In this document: piece after piece, positions 18,399 through 38,252 of the stretch | Layout of the letters: every line of letters begins with the position of its first letter | Numbering within the stretch: position 1 is the stretch's first letter | NCBI GenBank assembly: GCA_016879935.1 | Contig: JAACJQ010000324.1 | Location: forward strand, 1-49,990 | Length of the DNA: 49,990 bases | Direction: 5' to 3' | Source of the DNA: Archangiaceae bacterium | Lineage (GTDB): Bacteria > Myxococcota > Myxococcia > Myxococcales > Myxococcaceae | The notes under the pieces: generated by a model | The model's input: the letters and a program-made list of their open reading frames with translations, nothing else | Databases searched by the model: none | What the model was told of the DNA's origin: nothing | Made by a program: the position numbers and the translations under genes

Positions 18399-20354
18399 TC
18401 AACCCAGCGCTGAGATCTCCGAGCCCACGACTTCCCACCGGGCGAGCGCCTGCTCGAGTTCCTGCGCCGCCTCGCGATGCGCGGCAAACACCGGCCCCGA
18501 GGCGCCGTAGTCCTTCGCGAACTCGGCATCGGCCAATTGCGCCTCACGCACCTTCTGCTCCGCCTCGAGCTGCGCGATGCGTGCCTCGAGCTTCTCCAGC
18601 TCCTTCTTGAGCGGGTTCAGCTTCTTGCTCCGCTCCTGTCGCGCCTCGGCCTCGAGCCGTTTGCGCTCCTTCTCGCTCGAGGGCTTTCCACCGCCCGCTG
18701 GCGCGTTCGAGGTGTTCAGCTGCCCCGACTCCGCGCGCTCCTTCGCCTCGATGTCGAGCTTCGCCAGGTACTCCGACATCGAGCCCATGAACGGCACCAG
18801 CTTGCGATCGCGCACGTCCCAGATGTGCGTGGCCAGGGTGTCGAGGAACGAGCGGTTGTGCGACACGAAGATCAACGTGCCGTCGTAGTCCTCGAGCGCT
18901 TCGATGAGCGCCTCCGACGAATCGAGATCGAGGTGGTTCGTCGGCTCGTCCATCACCAGCAGGTTCGCCGGCTTCACGAGCAACCGCGCCAACGCCACGC
19001 GCGCCCGTTCTCCACCCGAGAGCACGCCGATCTTCTTGTCGACGTCGTCACCCGAGAACAGGAACGCGCCCAGCACGCTGCGCACGTACGACTGCGGCTT
19101 GTCGGGCACGAGCTCCATGATCTCTTCGAGAATCGTGCGGCTCTTCTCGAGCGTGTCGGCGTGGTGCTGCGCGTAGTACCCCAGCTGCACGTTGTGCCCG
19201 AGCGTCACCGTGCCCGCGTCGGCCTCGAGCTCACCCGTCAGCAGCTTCAGCAGCGTCGTCTTGCCTGCGCCGTTGAGGCCCGTCACGGCCACCCGCTGTC
19301 CCCGGAGCAGCAGCGCGTCGAGCCCGTCGTAGACGACGTGTTCACCGAACGCCTTCTTGATGCCCGACAGCTTCACCACGTCACGGCCAGGCGGGCTCGT
19401 CGGCGGGAACGTGAAGCCCACCGTCGCGCGCTCGCGGTGCACCTCCACCGTCTCCATCTTCGCGAGCTGCTTCATCTTCGACTGCGCCTGCGCGGCCTTG
19501 CTCGCCTTCGCTTTGAAGCGATCGACGAACGCCTGCAGCTGCGCGCGCTTCGCTTCGATCTTCTGCTGCGACGCCAGCAACCGCTCGGCCTCTTCGGCTC
19601 GCAGCCGCCGGTAGTCTTCGAAGTTCCCCGTCCACGAGCGCACGCCCTCGACCTCGAGCGACACCACGCGGTTGATCTGCCGGTTCAAGAACTCGCGATC
19701 GTGGCTGATGAGCACCATCGCCTTGCGCGAGCGCTTCAAGAACCCGTCGAACCAGGCCAACGTCGGCAGGTCGAGGTGGTTCGTCGGCTCGTCGAGCAAC
19801 AACAGATCGGGGTCCTGCAGGAGCAGCCCCGCGAGCGCCGCACGCATGCGCCAGCCACCCGAGAACTGCGAGGTCGACTTCGTGAGCTCCGACAGTTGAA
19901 AGCCGAGGCCCAGCAGAATGCTCTCGGCGCGGTGTTTGCCGTAGTGCTCCTCGAAGTGATCGCGCTCCTCGTGCAGCTCGGCCAGCGTGGCGGCGAGCTC
20001 GAGCTGCTCGGCCTCTTCCGTCGCCTCCGACAACAACCGCTCGGTCACCGAGAGCCGCTCGTCGAGCGAATCGCGCCCGGGCACCGACGACAGCACCGCG
20101 TCGACCAGCGGCCCTTCGGCGAGCGTCTGCAGCTCCTGCGCGAGGTAGCCGACGCGGGCGTTCCGCCGAAACGTGATCGAGCCCTCGTCGGCGTGCACCT
20201 GCCCCACCAGAATCTTGAGGAACGTCGACTTCCCCGTTCCGTTCGCGCCGACGAGGCCGATGCGATCGGTCGGGCCGATCGTCAACGCCGCATCCTCGAA
20301 GAGGGCCTTCTTCCCGTACGACAGCGACAGCTTCTGGACGATGACGAGGCTCAA
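18399..20354 (-). CDS. ABC-F family ATPase
   Basis: The 651-residue protein has two tandem ABC ATPase domains and no membrane part, the hallmark of ABC-F translation factors. The first domain has Walker A 'GANGTGKST' (~36-44) and signature 'FSGGWRMRAALAG' with 'LLLLDEPTNHLD'. An inter-domain linker rich in Lys/Ala/Gln follows. The second domain has 'GLNGAGKTT', 'LSGGERARVALARLL' and 'LVMDEPTNHLD'. A C-terminal coiled-coil ('NPLKKELEKLEARIAQLEAE') completes a YheS/Uup-like layout. It should act on ribosomes. A TTG start at 20352-20354 giving 'MSLVIVQKLSLSYG' is proposed because the first beta-strand normally begins there; upstream GTG codons are alternatives. Its stop adjoins the ParE-like gene's stop. 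Confidence 0.9.
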   Translation of the reverse strand: MSLVIVQKLSLSYGKKALFEDAALTIGPTDRIGLVGANGTGKSTFLKILVGQVHADEGSITFRRNARVGYLAQELQTLAEGPLVDAVLSSVPGRDSLDERLSVTERLLSEATEEAEQLELAATLAELHEERDHFEEHYGKHRAESILLGLGFQLSELTKSTSQFSGGWRMRAALAGLLLQDPDLLLLDEPTNHLDLPTLAWFDGFLKRSRKAMVLISHDREFLNRQINRVVSLEVEGVRSWTGNFEDYRRLRAEEAERLLASQQKIEAKRAQLQAFVDRFKAKASKAAQAQSKMKQLAKMETVEVHRERATVGFTFPPTSPPGRDVVKLSGIKKAFGEHVVYDGLDALLLRGQRVAVTGLNGAGKTTLLKLLTGELEADAGTVTLGHNVQLGYYAQHHADTLEKSRTILEEIMELVPDKPQSYVRSVLGAFLFSGDDVDKKIGVLSGGERARVALARLLVKPANLLVMDEPTNHLDLDSSEALIEALEDYDGTLIFVSHNRSFLDTLATHIWDVRDRKLVPFMGSMSEYLAKLDIEAKERAESGQLNTSNAPAGGGKPSSEKERKRLEAEARQERSKKLNPLKKELEKLEARIAQLEAEQKVREAQLADAEFAKDYGASGPVFAAHREAAQELEQALARWEVVGSEISALG

Positions 20355-20457
20355 AGCGCTGCGGGCCTTACCAGCGTGCGCGCCTTGAATCGACGGTGAC
20401 ACCTCAGGTACGTGCCCATCGCCTCGTCGGCCGGACGGGGAAGCCCGGGGGCCGTTC

Positions 20458-22194
20458 ATGTCGAAAGTTCATTCGCTGCTGTTCATCGCGTCGCTGTCGT
20501 GCGCGGTGGCGTCGCTCTCGGCGTGCAAACCGGTGAGCAAGTGCAGCGCGACGAGCTGCAACGGCTGCTGCTCCGAGCTCGGTCAGTGCCTCGCGGGCAA
20601 CATGTCGAACGCGTGCGGCCGTGCGGGCACCACGTGCAAGGCCTGCGGCGCGACCGAGATGTGCATCGCCACCACGGGAGCGTGCGCGGCGAGCACCGGA
20701 ACGGGTGGCGGGAGCAGCGGCTCCGGCGGAGGAACGTCAGGAACGGGCGGTGGCACGAGCGGCACCGGCGGCGGAACGTCGGGCACGGGCGGAGGCGGCA
20801 TCGGCGGCGGCACCGTCAACCCCAACGACGTGGAAGGCACCTGCACCCAGACCTACAGCTTCGACTCCGACGGCGGCACCCGGCCCTGTCAATTCGGCGC
20901 CAACACGCCCTCGGCGATCATCATCGGCGAAGACGGCGGGCTCACCACCATCGTCTCGGCCGTGCGCCCCGACAGCAGCTTCACGCTCGCCAACGTGCCG
21001 ATGGGCCCCTACTTCCTCAAGCTCGGCACCACCTGGTTCAAGACGAGCCAGCGCCGCGTGTCGCTCGACTACGAGTCGCTCGGCCGTGTCGATGGAGCGA
21101 TGGCGGCCACTGGCACGACGCTCACGGTCGCGACGACGGGCATGCAACCGTGGAACGACCTCACCCACTTCATGAGCCTCTACAGCTCGAACAGCGGCGT
21201 GGCGATGGAGGCCTTCAGCCTCTACACGACCAACGCGCCCCTCGGCGGTGAGTCGGCCTTCGACTGGCGCATTCCCTACGATCAGTACTCGACCCAGCTG
21301 CTCACGCCGATGCTCGACTCCACGAAGGGCGACGCGGTGCTGATCACCCAGATGGAGTCGAGCTCGTCAGGCGAGTACCGAACCGTCGGCGCGGGCTCGG
21401 GCTCGGCCGTCGCGATGGTCTCTGGGCAGGCGAACACCACGACGGTGGCCCTCATGTCGCCGCCCGCCAGCACCACGCCGCTCGACGTCAGCGTCTCGTC
21501 GTTCTCGCAGTACACGTCCGACTTCACGACGGGCACGGCGCCGACGCTCAACCTCGAGTTCACGACGGGCCCCAAGCCGCTCCATGAACGCGCCAGTGAC
21601 GGCCTCGCGTTCGTCTGGGGCTCGTACCCGCAGGCCGGCGCCACCGCGACGCCACCCAACCCGCTCAGCTACCCGAACCCCTTCCCCGCCTCCTGGGGCA
21701 CGACGGTGATGATTCAGTACGGCGGCACCGTCAGCCGGCTCTTCACTGGAGCGACCGAGCCCCGGCGCTACTTCTCGGGCATCACCACCACCGTTCCCAT
21801 TCAGGCGCTCGCCTCGCCCATCGCCGCGACCATCTCGCCGCCGAAGGACGTGCAGCTCAACGGCATGCCCTTCGCCAACGCACAGCCTGCGGTCACGCGC
21901 ACGCCGACCATCTCCTGGGGCGCTCCCACGCTTGGCACCGTCAGCCGCTACCTGCTCCGCGTCGAGCAGCTGCAGCTCAGCTCTGGCCGCACCACGAGCC
22001 GCGTCGCAGGCACGTTCTACCTGCTGCCGACCGACACCTCGTTCACCCTGCCGACCAACGTGTTGCTCACGGGGCAGTCGTACGTGCTCACGCTCTCGGC
22101 CTACAAGCTGTCGACGAACATCGAGCGCGATCTTTCCGACTTCCGCTTCCCGATCTCATCGGCCAGCGTCGTCTCAGGCATCGTCAAACCCTGA
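20458..22194 (+). CDS. Cys-rich lipoprotein, first of three tandem paralogs
   Basis: The 578-residue protein has a lipobox signal peptide (ASLSA-C), then one Cys module ('CSATSCNGCCSELGQC', 'ACGRAGTTCKACGATEMC'). A Gly/Ser/Thr linker of six or so GTGGG units follows, then a beta-rich body beginning near 'YSFDSDGGTRPC'. The C-terminal ~100 residues resemble a fibronectin type III fold ('TPTISWGAPTLGTVSRYLLRV') and end 'VVSGIVKP'. The two following genes share the whole layout and the C-terminal signature. It is the most divergent of the three. A surface-exposed role is likely from the architecture. No enzymatic motif is visible. Confidence 0.75.
   Translation: MSKVHSLLFIASLSCAVASLSACKPVSKCSATSCNGCCSELGQCLAGNMSNACGRAGTTCKACGATEMCIATTGACAASTGTGGGSSGSGGGTSGTGGGTSGTGGGTSGTGGGGIGGGTVNPNDVEGTCTQTYSFDSDGGTRPCQFGANTPSAIIIGEDGGLTTIVSAVRPDSSFTLANVPMGPYFLKLGTTWFKTSQRRVSLDYESLGRVDGAMAATGTTLTVATTGMQPWNDLTHFMSLYSSNSGVAMEAFSLYTTNAPLGGESAFDWRIPYDQYSTQLLTPMLDSTKGDAVLITQMESSSSGEYRTVGAGSGSAVAMVSGQANTTTVALMSPPASTTPLDVSVSSFSQYTSDFTTGTAPTLNLEFTTGPKPLHERASDGLAFVWGSYPQAGATATPPNPLSYPNPFPASWGTTVMIQYGGTVSRLFTGATEPRRYFSGITTTVPIQALASPIAATISPPKDVQLNGMPFANAQPAVTRTPTISWGAPTLGTVSRYLLRVEQLQLSSGRTTSRVAGTFYLLPTDTSFTLPTNVLLTGQSYVLTLSAYKLSTNIERDLSDFRFPISSASVVSGIVKP
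20695..20817 (+). repeat. Coding tandem repeat for Gly/Ser/Thr linker
   Basis: About six imperfect 18-21-base units of the type acgggcggtggcacgagc encode G-T-G-G-G-[ST]-S repeats between the Cys module and the body domain. They could recombine with related tracts in the two neighbouring paralogs. Confidence 0.6.
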
Positions 22195-22253: not shown

Positions 22254-23888
22254 ATGCGATTCGCAGCATTCTCCATCTCGTTCGTGCTCGGTGTCGTCGG
22301 CGCCGTGTCGTGTTCCCCGTCGAAGAAGTGCACCCCGGCAAGCTGCTCCGGATGCTGCTCGGCCAACGACACGTGTGAGACCGGCGGCGCGACGACGGCC
22401 TGCGGCAGCGCGGGGGCCTTGTGCGATCGCTGCGTCGGCGCCCAGCTCTGCGTCGCGGGCAAGTGCGAAGGCGGCACGAACACCGGCGGCGGCAGTGGTG
22501 GTGGCACCGCGGGCGGCATGGGCGGTGGCAGCTCCACCGGCACCGAGCTCACTGGCACCTACCAGGAGATGTGGGGCTGGGACGCTGACGGCGGCCGCAC
22601 CGCGACGATCAAGAACTTCTCCCGAGCACGCGTTGGAGTCTGGTACCGCGATGGCGGCTCGCCCGACTTCATTCGGGGCATCGGCAACGACGACGGCACC
22701 TTCGTGGTGCGTGACGTCCCCGCGGGCGAAGTCACCCTGCAGCTCGACAAGCGCTTCTTCGTCACCACCGCGCGCCAGCTCGCCTTCGACAGCTTCATCG
22801 GCGGCCGCAAAGACGCCGTGCAGGCGACCAGCGAGTCGACGTTGCGGCTGACCATGCGCGGCCTGCAGCCGATCAGCACCACCAGCTCGACTGGCTTCTT
22901 CTTCACGCAGCTCGGCGGCACGGCCAACAACCTCGAGAACGTGGCCCGGCCCGTCACGCCGGCTGGCGCGACCAGCATCGAGTCGGATCTCGACTGGGCC
23001 CAGCTCTCGACCGCCCTCGGCTACGGCCTGCCGGACTCGTCGAAGGGCGACAAGGGCTACGCCTACCAGAACGCCACCGTGACCACCGACGCTGGCAGCT
23101 TCTCGAGCCTCGTGCGTGCCGGCGAGTTCAACATGGTCACCCTCGTGAACGGCGGCACGGCCGACGCGATCGTCGACCTGACCGCGACGCAGACGGCGCC
23201 GTACTCGCTCAACGTCGACCGGGCCGCCTTCACCGCGCTGCGAGGCAGCTTTGGCCGCAGCGCAGGCGTCGCGTAGTGGCAGGTACAGGTCGGCACTTCT
23301 CCGTCAGCCCCGCCCTTCCGCTTCAGTGGCCAGGGCGTCGTCACGCTCGCCTCGGCAGCACTGAAAGAGACCGAGCCCGTCACGCTGCCGGTCCCGTCGC
23401 CTTTCCCCGGCTCGTGGGGTCGCGAGGTGTTCATGACCTTCGTCGTGCCGCAGCTTCGTCAGCCCACCGATGCAGGCACGCCCACCGAGTTCTTCGGCGG
23501 CGTTTCACTGGGCGATGCTGCGGAGCGCCTCACGGGAACCATCGCGCCGCGGCTGGGCCCGGTGCGCGGCGCGCAGATCGCCAACCGCAACTTCGTCGAA
23601 GATCAGAGCGGCGTGACGACCACGCCCAGCCTCTCGTGGATGGCGCCGTCGACTGGAGTTGCCAACAGCTACCGCGTCTCGATCAGCCGCATCGACGACT
23701 CGGGTCAGGTGCAAGACCTGTGGCGGGTGTACACGCCGAGCCTGGCGGTCACGATTCCTCCCGGCGTGCTCGTCATGGGCAACGTCTACGTGCTCGAGCT
23801 CGAGGCGCTCTCGTTCGGCGAGGGCAGCATCTCGTTCACCCTGCCCTTCGCCCGCTCGGTCGTCGTGAGCGGCGTCATTCGTCCCTGA
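22254..23888 (+). pseudogene. Cys-rich lipoprotein paralog interrupted by in-frame TAG
   Basis: The ATG at 22254 opens a signal peptide with lipobox GAVS-C, one Cys module, a Gly/Ser linker and a body closely similar to the next gene ('VWYRDGGSPDFIRGIG' against 'VWYSDAGVPDYVRGVG'). At codon 341 (23274-23276) a TAG stops the 340-residue product inside 'GSFGRSAGVA'. The same frame stays open for another 204 codons, and the encoded sequence ('FRFSGQGVVTLAS', 'RNFVEDQSGVTTTPSLSWMAP', ending 'VVSGVIRP') matches the rest of the paralog. The intact protein would be ~544 residues. A recent nonsense mutation, a sequencing error, or readthrough could explain this. The truncated form would lose the FN3-like C-terminus. 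Confidence 0.8.
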
Positions 23889-25606: not shown

Positions 25607-27157
25607 ATGGCTGACTCGATCGAACAGCTCAACGCCACGGCGCTCCTCGGGCGGCTCATCGACGGGCGCTACAAGGTGGAGTCCGTGCTCGGCCAGGGCG
25701 GCATGGGCGTCGTGTTCCGCGCAGTGCAGACGTCGGTGCAGCGCCCCGTCGCGATGAAGACGCTGCACCCGCAGCTCGCGATGGCGGCGACCTTCTTCGA
25801 GCGCTTCAAGCGTGAAGCCGAGATCGCCAGCCGCCTGCACCACCCGAACATCATCACCATCTTCGACTTCGGGCGGACGAGCGACGGCCTCTGCTACTAC
25901 GTGATGGAGATGCTCGAGGGCGTGAGCCTTCGGCAGCGCGTGAAGCAGGACGGGCCGATGACGTTGCGGCAGGCCGCCGCGGTGATCGAGCAGGCCACCC
26001 TCGGCGTCGGGCACGCACACAAACAGGGCGTCATTCACCGCGATCTGAAGCCGCACAACGTGATGCTCAGCCTCATCGACGGCAACGAGTACGTGAAGGT
26101 GCTCGACTTCGGCCTCGTGAAGGCGATGGAGCAGGAGGAAGAGGAGCAGCTGACCTCGACCGGCCAGGTGCTCGGCACGCCCCAGTACATGCCGCCAGAG
26201 CAGGCCGGCGGCGAGAAGGTCGATCACCGCTCCGATCTCTATTCTCTGACCGGCGTCTTCTATTACTGCCTCACCGGCCACTCGCCCTTCGGCGCGAACA
26301 CGGTGCGCAAGGCGCTCCAGGCGTCGCTCACGCAGAAGCCGCCACCGATCGCGACGTACCGCAAGGGCGCTCCGGTGCCCGACGCGATCGATCGGTTCTG
26401 CCAGAAGGGCCTCGAGGCCGAGAGCGACGCCCGTCACCAGTCGGCCGAGGCGTTCATCGAGTCGCTGCACGCTGCGCTGTCGGGAACGCCAGACTCGGTG
26501 CTCGACGCGGTGCCACAGCACGTCGCCGAGTCAGGCAAGGAGTCGGGCTCGGGCTCCTCGAGCGCGTCGCGGCGGGGCAGCTCGCGCACGGGCTCTCGAG
26601 CCGCGGTGAAGGCCGTCTCGTCGGTGAACAACAAGTCGAAGTCGGGCGCCTCGAAGGTCGAGCCAGCACCTGCTCCCGAGAGCGTGAAGCGCGGCCCACC
26701 CGTCGCGGCCATCGCGGGAATCGCCATCGTGCTGGTCGGCGTGATCGTCGGTGCGTTGGTGGTGAAGAGCCAACGCGGGGCCGAGCCGCAGGTCGATCGC
26801 CCAGTCGCCACGCCGCCCAAACCCACCCAGGCACAGGTGACACCGCCGCTCCCGACCGAGCCGGCCGTGGTGCGAGTCGCGCTCAAGACGCTGCCGCCCG
26901 GTGCCGAAGTGCTCGAAGACGGCGTCACGCTCGGCACCACGCCCCTGTCGCTGGACTGGAGTCGCGCGGCCAAACGCACGCTCACGTTCAAGCTCGCCGG
27001 TCACCGCGATCTCGAGAAGGCGCTCAAGCCCGAGTCCGACCAGGAGTTCGAGTTCGCCCTCGAAGCCCTCAAGAAGCCCTCGAACCCCGGCAGACCCCCA
27101 CCCCAAGTCAAGAACCCACAGAAGCCGCCGACGGACGACATCAGCGCCTTCGAGTGA
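25607..27157 (+). CDS. Ser/Thr protein kinase with PEGA domain (Pkn type)
   Basis: This 516-residue membrane kinase has an intact catalytic domain: glycine loop 'LGQGGMGVVF' (28-37), Lys51 in 'VAMKTL', catalytic loop 'HRDLKPHN' (Asp146), 'DFG' (167-169) and 'PPEQA' (196-200). A Ser/Gly-rich linker leads to one membrane helix ('VAAIAGIAIVLVGVIVGALVV', near residues 365-386). An extracytoplasmic PEGA-like domain with 'LPPGAEVLEDGVTLGTTPLS' follows. The order kinase, helix, PEGA is classic for myxobacterial Pkn proteins: cytoplasmic signalling with a periplasmic sensor. A -10-like TAAGCT lies 11 bases before the ATG. The metallopeptidase gene starts 135 bases downstream, perhaps with its own promoter. 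Confidence 0.93.
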   Translation: MADSIEQLNATALLGRLIDGRYKVESVLGQGGMGVVFRAVQTSVQRPVAMKTLHPQLAMAATFFERFKREAEIASRLHHPNIITIFDFGRTSDGLCYYVMEMLEGVSLRQRVKQDGPMTLRQAAAVIEQATLGVGHAHKQGVIHRDLKPHNVMLSLIDGNEYVKVLDFGLVKAMEQEEEEQLTSTGQVLGTPQYMPPEQAGGEKVDHRSDLYSLTGVFYYCLTGHSPFGANTVRKALQASLTQKPPPIATYRKGAPVPDAIDRFCQKGLEAESDARHQSAEAFIESLHAALSGTPDSVLDAVPQHVAESGKESGSGSSSASRRGSSRTGSRAAVKAVSSVNNKSKSGASKVEPAPAPESVKRGPPVAAIAGIAIVLVGVIVGALVVKSQRGAEPQVDRPVATPPKPTQAQVTPPLPTEPAVVRVALKTLPPGAEVLEDGVTLGTTPLSLDWSRAAKRTLTFKLAGHRDLEKALKPESDQEFEFALEALKKPSNPGRPPPQVKNPQKPPTDDISAFE

Positions 27158-36555: not shown

Positions 36556-37727
36556 TGTTCGTTCCCTTCCTCTACGAGCTGCGCAGCCGGAAGGTGCCCG
36601 TCGGTGCGACCGAGGCCGTGGCGTTGGGGCAGGCGCTCGTTCAAGGCCTGCACGACAGCTCGCTCGAGGGCTTCTATTTCGTCGCCCGCGCGCTGCTGAT
36701 TCACGACGAGAAGCACCTCGACGCGTTCGACCAGGCCTTCGCGAAGTACTTCCAGGGCATCGAGTCGTCGGCCATGGAGATCACCGAGCAGCTGCTCGAG
36801 TGGGTGCGCGAGGCGAAGCAACCCGATCGCATGCTGACGCCCGAAGAGAAGGCGCTGCTCGATCAGCTCGATCTCAAGACGCTCGAGCAGCTCTTCGAGC
36901 AGCGCATGAAGGAGCAGAAGGAGCGCCACGATCGCGGCAACAAGTGGATCGGCACGGCGGGCACCTCTCCCTTCGGCAACACCGGCAAGGCCGCGCGTGA
37001 AGGCATGAAGGTCGGCGACGCGGCCGGCATGCGCAGCGCGGTGCGAATGGCCTCGGAGCGCGCCTACAAGGAGTACCGCGACGATCTCGTGCTCGACGTG
37101 CGCCAGATGCAGCTCGCCTTGCGCAAGCTGCGGGCGTTCGCGCGGGAAGGAGCCCACGACGAGCTCGATCTCGACGCCACCATCACCGAGACGGCGCGCA
37201 ACCTCGGCGATCTCGAGGTCGTCACCCGGCCTCCGCGCAAGTCGAACACCCGCGTCATTCTCTTGATGGACGTGGGCGGCTCGATGGATCCTTTCGCGCA
37301 CCTCGTCTCGCGGCTCTTCACCGCAGCGAAGAAGGCGACGCACTTTCGCGAGCTGCGCACGTACTACTTCCACAACTGCATCTACGGCCGCGTCTACAAG
37401 CAGGCGAGCTTCCGCGACCCGATCACCCTGCCCCAGCTCTTCGCCGAGACCGATCGCCGCTACAAATTGATCGTCGTCGGCGACGCACTCATGGCGCCCT
37501 GGGAGCTGATGAGCGTCTCGGGCTGGAGCGACGACGAAGGCCTCGAGGGCGTCGTGCACCTCATGCGCCTGCGCGAGCACTTCACCGCGAGCTGCTGGCT
37601 CAACCCCGAGCCGCCGTCGAGCTGGTGGCAGACGACCGTCGACGTCATCCGCAAGGTGTTTCCGATGTACCCTCTCACCCTCGAAGGGCTGGGAGACGCG
37701 GTCGGCCAGCTGACGAAGGCGAGGTAG
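36555..37727 (+). CDS. CoxE-like VWA-domain protein
   Basis: The 390-residue cytoplasmic protein has a helical N-terminal part with a charged coiled-coil ('EQLFEQRMKEQKERHDRG'). A C-terminal von Willebrand A domain of the CoxE/YehP type follows. The metal site reads 'LLMDVGGSMDPF', so the classic DxSxS is D239-x-G241-x-S243: the first Ser is Gly. The later acidic residue is in 'LIVVGDALM'. It is the expected partner of the MoxR ATPase and overlaps it by one base. The next gene, a cNMP-binding protein, starts 6 bases after its stop, making a three-gene operon. Confidence 0.88.
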   Translation: MFVPFLYELRSRKVPVGATEAVALGQALVQGLHDSSLEGFYFVARALLIHDEKHLDAFDQAFAKYFQGIESSAMEITEQLLEWVREAKQPDRMLTPEEKALLDQLDLKTLEQLFEQRMKEQKERHDRGNKWIGTAGTSPFGNTGKAAREGMKVGDAAGMRSAVRMASERAYKEYRDDLVLDVRQMQLALRKLRAFAREGAHDELDLDATITETARNLGDLEVVTRPPRKSNTRVILLMDVGGSMDPFAHLVSRLFTAAKKATHFRELRTYYFHNCIYGRVYKQASFRDPITLPQLFAETDRRYKLIVVGDALMAPWELMSVSGWSDDEGLEGVVHLMRLREHFTASCWLNPEPPSSWWQTTVDVIRKVFPMYPLTLEGLGDAVGQLTKAR

Positions 37728-37733
37728 ACGTCG

Positions 37734-38252
37734 ATGGCGAAGGACACGCAGGACCTGCGCACGTGGCTGCCGACGATCGCGCTCTTCGGGGGGCTCGAGG
37801 AGCCCGCGCTCAAACGAGTGATCACCATGCTGGGCGAGCATCACTTCGAGCCTGGCTCCGAGGTCTGCAAACAGGGAGAAGCGGGCCGCGCGATGTTCCT
37901 CGTGCGCCACGGAGAGGTGGTCGTCTGCCGCGACGACGAGAGCGGCGCGCGCCGGAAGTTCATTCGTATGGGCTCGGGCGAGTTCTTCGGCGAGATGACG
38001 CTGATCGACATTCAGAAGCGCAGCGCGACCGTCGTCGTCGAGAAGCCGTCGCTCGTCTACTCGCTGGGCAACCGCGATCTCTACAACCTCTACCAGGAGG
38101 ACCCGGCGACCTACGTCATGATCCTCCAGAACCTCTGCCGCGAGCTCTCGCGCCGCCTGCGCGTGACGAACAACCGCCTGCAGACCCTCGCGAGCGAGGT
38201 CGACGACGAAGACGAGCGCACGCTCATTCGCCCGTCGGTGAAGAAGCTCTGA
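37734..38252 (+). CDS. Cyclic-nucleotide-binding domain protein without DNA-binding domain
   Basis: The 172-residue protein is a single CRP-type cyclic-nucleotide-binding domain: 'FEPGSEVCKQGEAGRAMFLV', then the phosphate-binding cassette 'GEFFGEMTLIDIQKRSATVVV', and a C-terminal helix. The cassette has the GE and R/S/A pattern of ligand-binding members. There is no helix-turn-helix; the tail is acidic ('EVDDEDERTLIRP'). It probably senses cNMP or acts by protein contact. It follows the MoxR/VWA pair by 6 bases and may regulate it. Its stop and that of the convergent YceI gene are adjacent (TGATCA). Confidence 0.88.
   Translation: MAKDTQDLRTWLPTIALFGGLEEPALKRVITMLGEHHFEPGSEVCKQGEAGRAMFLVRHGEVVVCRDDESGARRKFIRMGSGEFFGEMTLIDIQKRSATVVVEKPSLVYSLGNRDLYNLYQEDPATYVMILQNLCRELSRRLRVTNNRLQTLASEVDDEDERTLIRPSVKKL

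Follow-up and report, generated by a model that had tools for sequence, protein, structure and literature searches.

In a tandem set of three lipoprotein-like genes, why does the second one end at an in-frame TAG, when the sequence past that codon still reads as the remainder of the same protein? An earlier note on this DNA had offered three explanations, a very recent nonsense mutation, a base error, or programmed readthrough. The first proved to be the best supported, given a lineage-specific stop and strong purifying selection on the distal half, and the interrupted gene is probably a nonsense (pseudogene-type) allele of recent origin, in a tandem duplicate that is partly redundant.

The tandem array and the interrupted gene

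The window, 49,990 nucleotides in length, makes up the entire contig C290 in a Myxococcaceae draft genome of 9.5 Mb (G000; 445 contigs, about 95% complete). Three tandem paralogs, P1, P2, and P3, lie on its forward strand between two synteny anchors: an ABC-F-like ATPase gene, identified by sequence, on the left (18399-20459, reverse strand; 88% identity in three genomes), and a gene assigned from sequence motifs to the Ser/Thr protein kinases on the right (25607-27157, forward strand). P1 (20458-22194) encodes an intact protein of 578 residues and is syntenic across the genus. P3 (23909-25558) starts with GTG, encodes an intact protein of 549 residues, and was found in two of seven genomes. 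All three genes begin with a signal-peptide-like stretch that runs to a cysteine in a lipobox-like context, followed by a Cys-rich module, a Gly/Ser-rich linker, and a beta-rich region. No Pfam family scored over the cut-off for the P1, P2, or P3 proteins, NCBIfam gave no match for any of them, and searches with Foldseek and VIA-align revealed no specific function beyond FN3-like beta-sandwiches. The architecture suggests that the family may consist of envelope or surface lipoproteins with adhesion-type beta-sandwich domains.

The N-terminal module, about 100 residues comprising the signal peptide, the Cys-rich stretch, and a Gly/Ser/Thr linker, is also found in dozens of otherwise unlike proteins of G000 and the genus. 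In the window it opens the genes that start at 20458, 22254, 23909, 6655, and 42791, and 64 matches were counted genome-wide; no Pfam match above the cut-off was obtained for the module in the members tested.

The proximal part of P2 (22254-23276, forward strand) starts with ATG and encodes 340 residues, which include a signal peptide with a lipobox-like Cys20, the Cys-rich module, a Gly/Ser linker, and a beta-sandwich region. The terminating TAG at 23274-23276 is present in the record, as first reported. The distal part (23277-23888, forward strand) continues in the unchanged frame to a TGA at 23886-23888; the frame is open as claimed, and the count of 204 open codons comes down to 203 sense codons, the TGA having been included. 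Mapped from the P3 model, this part would form the remainder of the beta-rich region and a C-terminal fibronectin type III-like fold. It matches P3 (E = 1.7e-54; about 51% identity) up to the shared C-terminal VVSGVIRP, in agreement with the earlier observation, and matches same-genus orthologs with E-values of up to 1.3e-81 and 46-64% identity over the distal length; for the proximal part, identity to these orthologs and P3 is 55-68%. When the bases of the distal part were shuffled, the frame stayed open in only 1.7% of the versions. The distal part is a true homolog and not a chance open frame. The indel that had been suggested near the TAG is absent, because P2, P3, and the six orthologs align without a gap from a conserved GSFGR, through the TAG, to TSP; the first gaps in P2 occur about 35 codons downstream of the stop.

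Conservation across the genus and timing of the stop

The comparison set consisted of G000 and six other genomes of the genus (G001-G006). A contig scan with the P2 distal part alone as the query returned no match, whereas a profile scan recovered the same relatives, environmental assemblies that bear the names Archangium, Myxococcus, Myxococcaceae, and Myxococcales. An uninterrupted P2-like copy is present in all six other genomes, with clear synteny for five. The gene order (ABC-F-like gene, P1, P2, optional P3, Ser/Thr kinase, and two further genes) is complete in G005 and G006, and is the same up to the contig ends in G003, G001, and G004; on the stretch of G002 examined, the P2 copy alone was found. 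P1 orthologs (52-69% identity) adjoin the P2 ortholog in five genomes, and the kinase follows the array in five of the six relatives, directly after P2 in four of the five syntenic ones, P3 intervening only in G006. The copies of P3 in G000 and G006 cluster in the protein tree with 100% support, which indicates that P3 is an old duplicate. Its occurrence in two of seven genus genomes, despite the early duplication in the tree, would imply either repeated loss or a misleading tree.

At the TAG column, the orthologs carry Asp (three of six), Phe, Ser, or Gln (one each), P3 and its G006 counterpart (G006b) carry Ser, and none has a stop; the next column is mostly aromatic (W or F) in the relatives, and Leu in P3. 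Since all six other genus genomes have a sense codon at this position, the TAG is private to G000. One candidate for a second interrupted relative (G078, with a TGA) was spurious, as its stop sits upstream of the true start.

Branch codon models of the distal half gave an omega of 0.143 on the P2 branch compared to 0.096 for the background, which is not a significant difference (2dlnL 0.96), and rejected omega = 1 on the P2 branch (2dlnL 16.5). The likelihood profile placed the upper limit of the distal omega near 0.3 (2dlnL 3.5 at omega 0.3), and by a simple mixing argument no more than about a fifth to a quarter of the branch could have been unconstrained. In simulations of neutral drift of the distal DNA, with an assumed one indel per ten substitutions, the probability that the frame stayed open dropped to less than 5% once about 0.05 substitutions per site had accumulated; without indels, the frame was lost in about 80% of the runs by 0.1 substitutions per site. 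The distal half has thus been under clear purifying selection for almost the full length of the branch, which argues that the TAG is either recent or false, and the timing is rough because dS on the P2 branch is near saturation.

GC3 within P2 falls from 0.921 before the stop to 0.852 after it (Fisher p = 0.023), and the halves of the six orthologs differ by less than 0.02, although this was one unplanned comparison and GC3 also varies elsewhere in P2 and between the halves of P3 and G006b; the drop is a weak sign of real decay. P2 has kept 87 of 106 ortholog-invariant residues in its distal part versus 109 of 119 in its proximal part, but the distal region is more variable on several other branches also.

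One alternative, possible although somewhat unlikely, is that the TAG entered the draft assembly as an error in the consensus, or from a minority strain, and that P2 is intact in the organism. In favor of an error, as proposed in the earlier note, the record is a single draft of 445 contigs and the sole genome of its species among those searched; the relatives, all intact at the TAG column, and the distal half, which appears fully constrained and in frame, are likewise consistent with an error. However, a codon-usage scan of the 50 kb window saw no other clearly broken frame, and an internal stop was present in only one of the 64 family matches in the genome, so the assembly as a whole is not prone to errors. 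The GC3 drop past the stop also hints at real decay. A recent nonsense mutation in P2 is the reading that we favor, with the TAG base itself presumed to be real.

Decoding of the UAG codon

The genome encodes RF1 (prfA, 477 bits). No CUA anticodon was found among its 55 tRNA genes, and no PylRS (PylS) scored above the cut-off, the one match below it reaching 21 bits; because the genome is about 95% complete, a UAG-decoding gene might have been missed. A change of genetic code and pyrrolysine insertion were rejected on these findings. Two low-scoring tRNA-Ile calls with an AAT anticodon, unusual in bacteria and possibly false, were noted on contigs C277 and C23 of G000 (L153 and L154). The 100 nt of RNA following the TAG fold no better than shuffled versions (z-score 0.45), and no readthrough-stimulating hairpin was found at this site.

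TAG serves as an ordinary terminator elsewhere, at the end of a window gene (37725-37727) and in the P2 orthologs of G003 and G005. The window case has the look of a split gene, as a VWA-type gene ends with the TAG and a cyclic-nucleotide-binding-type gene starts two codons on in the same frame (37725-37736). It was considered as another broken gene and rejected, since the TAG separates two unlike genes (both named from sequence).

It is highly improbable that readthrough or nonsense suppression of the P2 stop yields some full-length protein, with the TAG acting as a functional stop that lowers expression. The in-frame constraint of the distal half is compatible with such a mechanism, and constrained regions past in-frame stops have been described as widespread in bacteria (PMC7918605), but a new mutation accounts for the distal constraint equally well. 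No relative conserves the stop, and the tRNA set without a UAG reader, the sub-cut-off PylRS match, the presence of RF1, the unremarkable downstream RNA, and the ordinary use of TAG as a terminator all speak against it. The programmed readthrough proposed earlier was accordingly not upheld.

The truncated product and comparison with known systems

P3 was modelled with AlphaFold (mean pLDDT 82). The TAG column corresponds to residue 345 of the model, where a long strand (residues 344-356) of the beta-rich region starts. Residues 438-549 of the model adopt an FN3-like fold (VIA-align Z of 9.4 over 92 residues, with 2.1 Å rmsd to an FN5 domain). A split of P2 at a domain boundary was considered and rejected, as the TAG falls at the start of the strand and not at the FN3 boundary near 438. 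On the basis of this model, the truncation is predicted to remove the rest of the middle region together with the C-terminal FN3-like domain (438-549).

On the favored reading, an ordinary point mutation would have created the UAG about 62% of the way through the gene, and RF1 would stop translation there. The likely product would be a 340-residue precursor that retains the signal peptide, the Cys-rich module, and the first beta-sandwich, and lacks the FN3-like domain and what remains of the middle region, probably with loss of P2 function. The truncation is probably tolerated, as an intact, full-length tandem copy, P3, is encoded in the same genome; partial redundancy could explain this tolerance, because only G000 and one other genus genome carry an intact P3.

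A second P2-like paralog in G001 (C263; JACSRE010000438.1, a 3,195-bp contig; L091/L189) is frameshifted between its proximal and distal parts. One base is missing from a G5 run at about 1556-1565 in L189, within two codons of the TAG column, and both halves are still homologous. A second break placed uniformly would fall that near the TAG column with a chance of about 0.9% (5/549), but this is a post hoc comparison. Errors and mutations are both likely in a G-run on a small draft contig, and the proximity of the two lesions is an unexplained coincidence. That the cut point is a recurrent site of breakage or recoding, represented by the UAG in G000 and the G5 frameshift in G001, through which family members may switch between short and long lipoprotein forms, is considered highly improbable. 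It is likewise highly improbable that the 340-residue protein represents a new, functional short form whose C-terminal loss is adaptive, or is tolerated because that form still works: lipobox, Cys-rich module, and first beta-sandwich would all be retained, and the break in the G001 paralog lies at almost the same point, but the stop cuts into the beta-rich region at the start of a strand, and truncated P2 modelled alone had a low mean confidence of 56, lowest in the last 30 residues (weak evidence, owing to a shallower alignment).

Neither a newly disrupted duplicate gene nor a base error would be out of the ordinary in bacteria. P2 is a clear case of a tandem-array lipoprotein gene that was either just broken or mis-sequenced, and its use lies mainly in annotation, where automatic pipelines would render it either as a pseudogene or as a 340-residue protein. 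Its importance would rise only if the stop turned out to be maintained and read through, or if the G001 frameshift turned out to be a shared switch site.

Three known systems provide points of comparison. As in programmed or pyrrolysine-type UAG recoding, P2 has an in-frame UAG with conserved coding sequence beyond it; unlike in those systems, the UAG is not conserved, it is an ordinary terminator in this genome, and the genome has RF1, no PylRS over the cut-off, and no CUA anticodon. The C-terminal region of P3 (438-549) aligns to structures of the fibronectin type III domain (PF00041; VIA-align Z of up to 9.4), whereas its Pfam score (20.7 bits) lies below the curated cut-off of 25, and the resemblance implies no function. 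In-frame stops in bacterial genes that are still constrained have been described as widespread and mostly short-lived (Belinky et al. 2021, PMC7918605). Although the P2 stop is known from one genome only, unlike the nonsense-interrupted genes of that study, P2 resembles them in that one in-frame TAG interrupts a gene that is otherwise constrained, its relatives have sense codons at that position, and its distal dN/dS is below 1.
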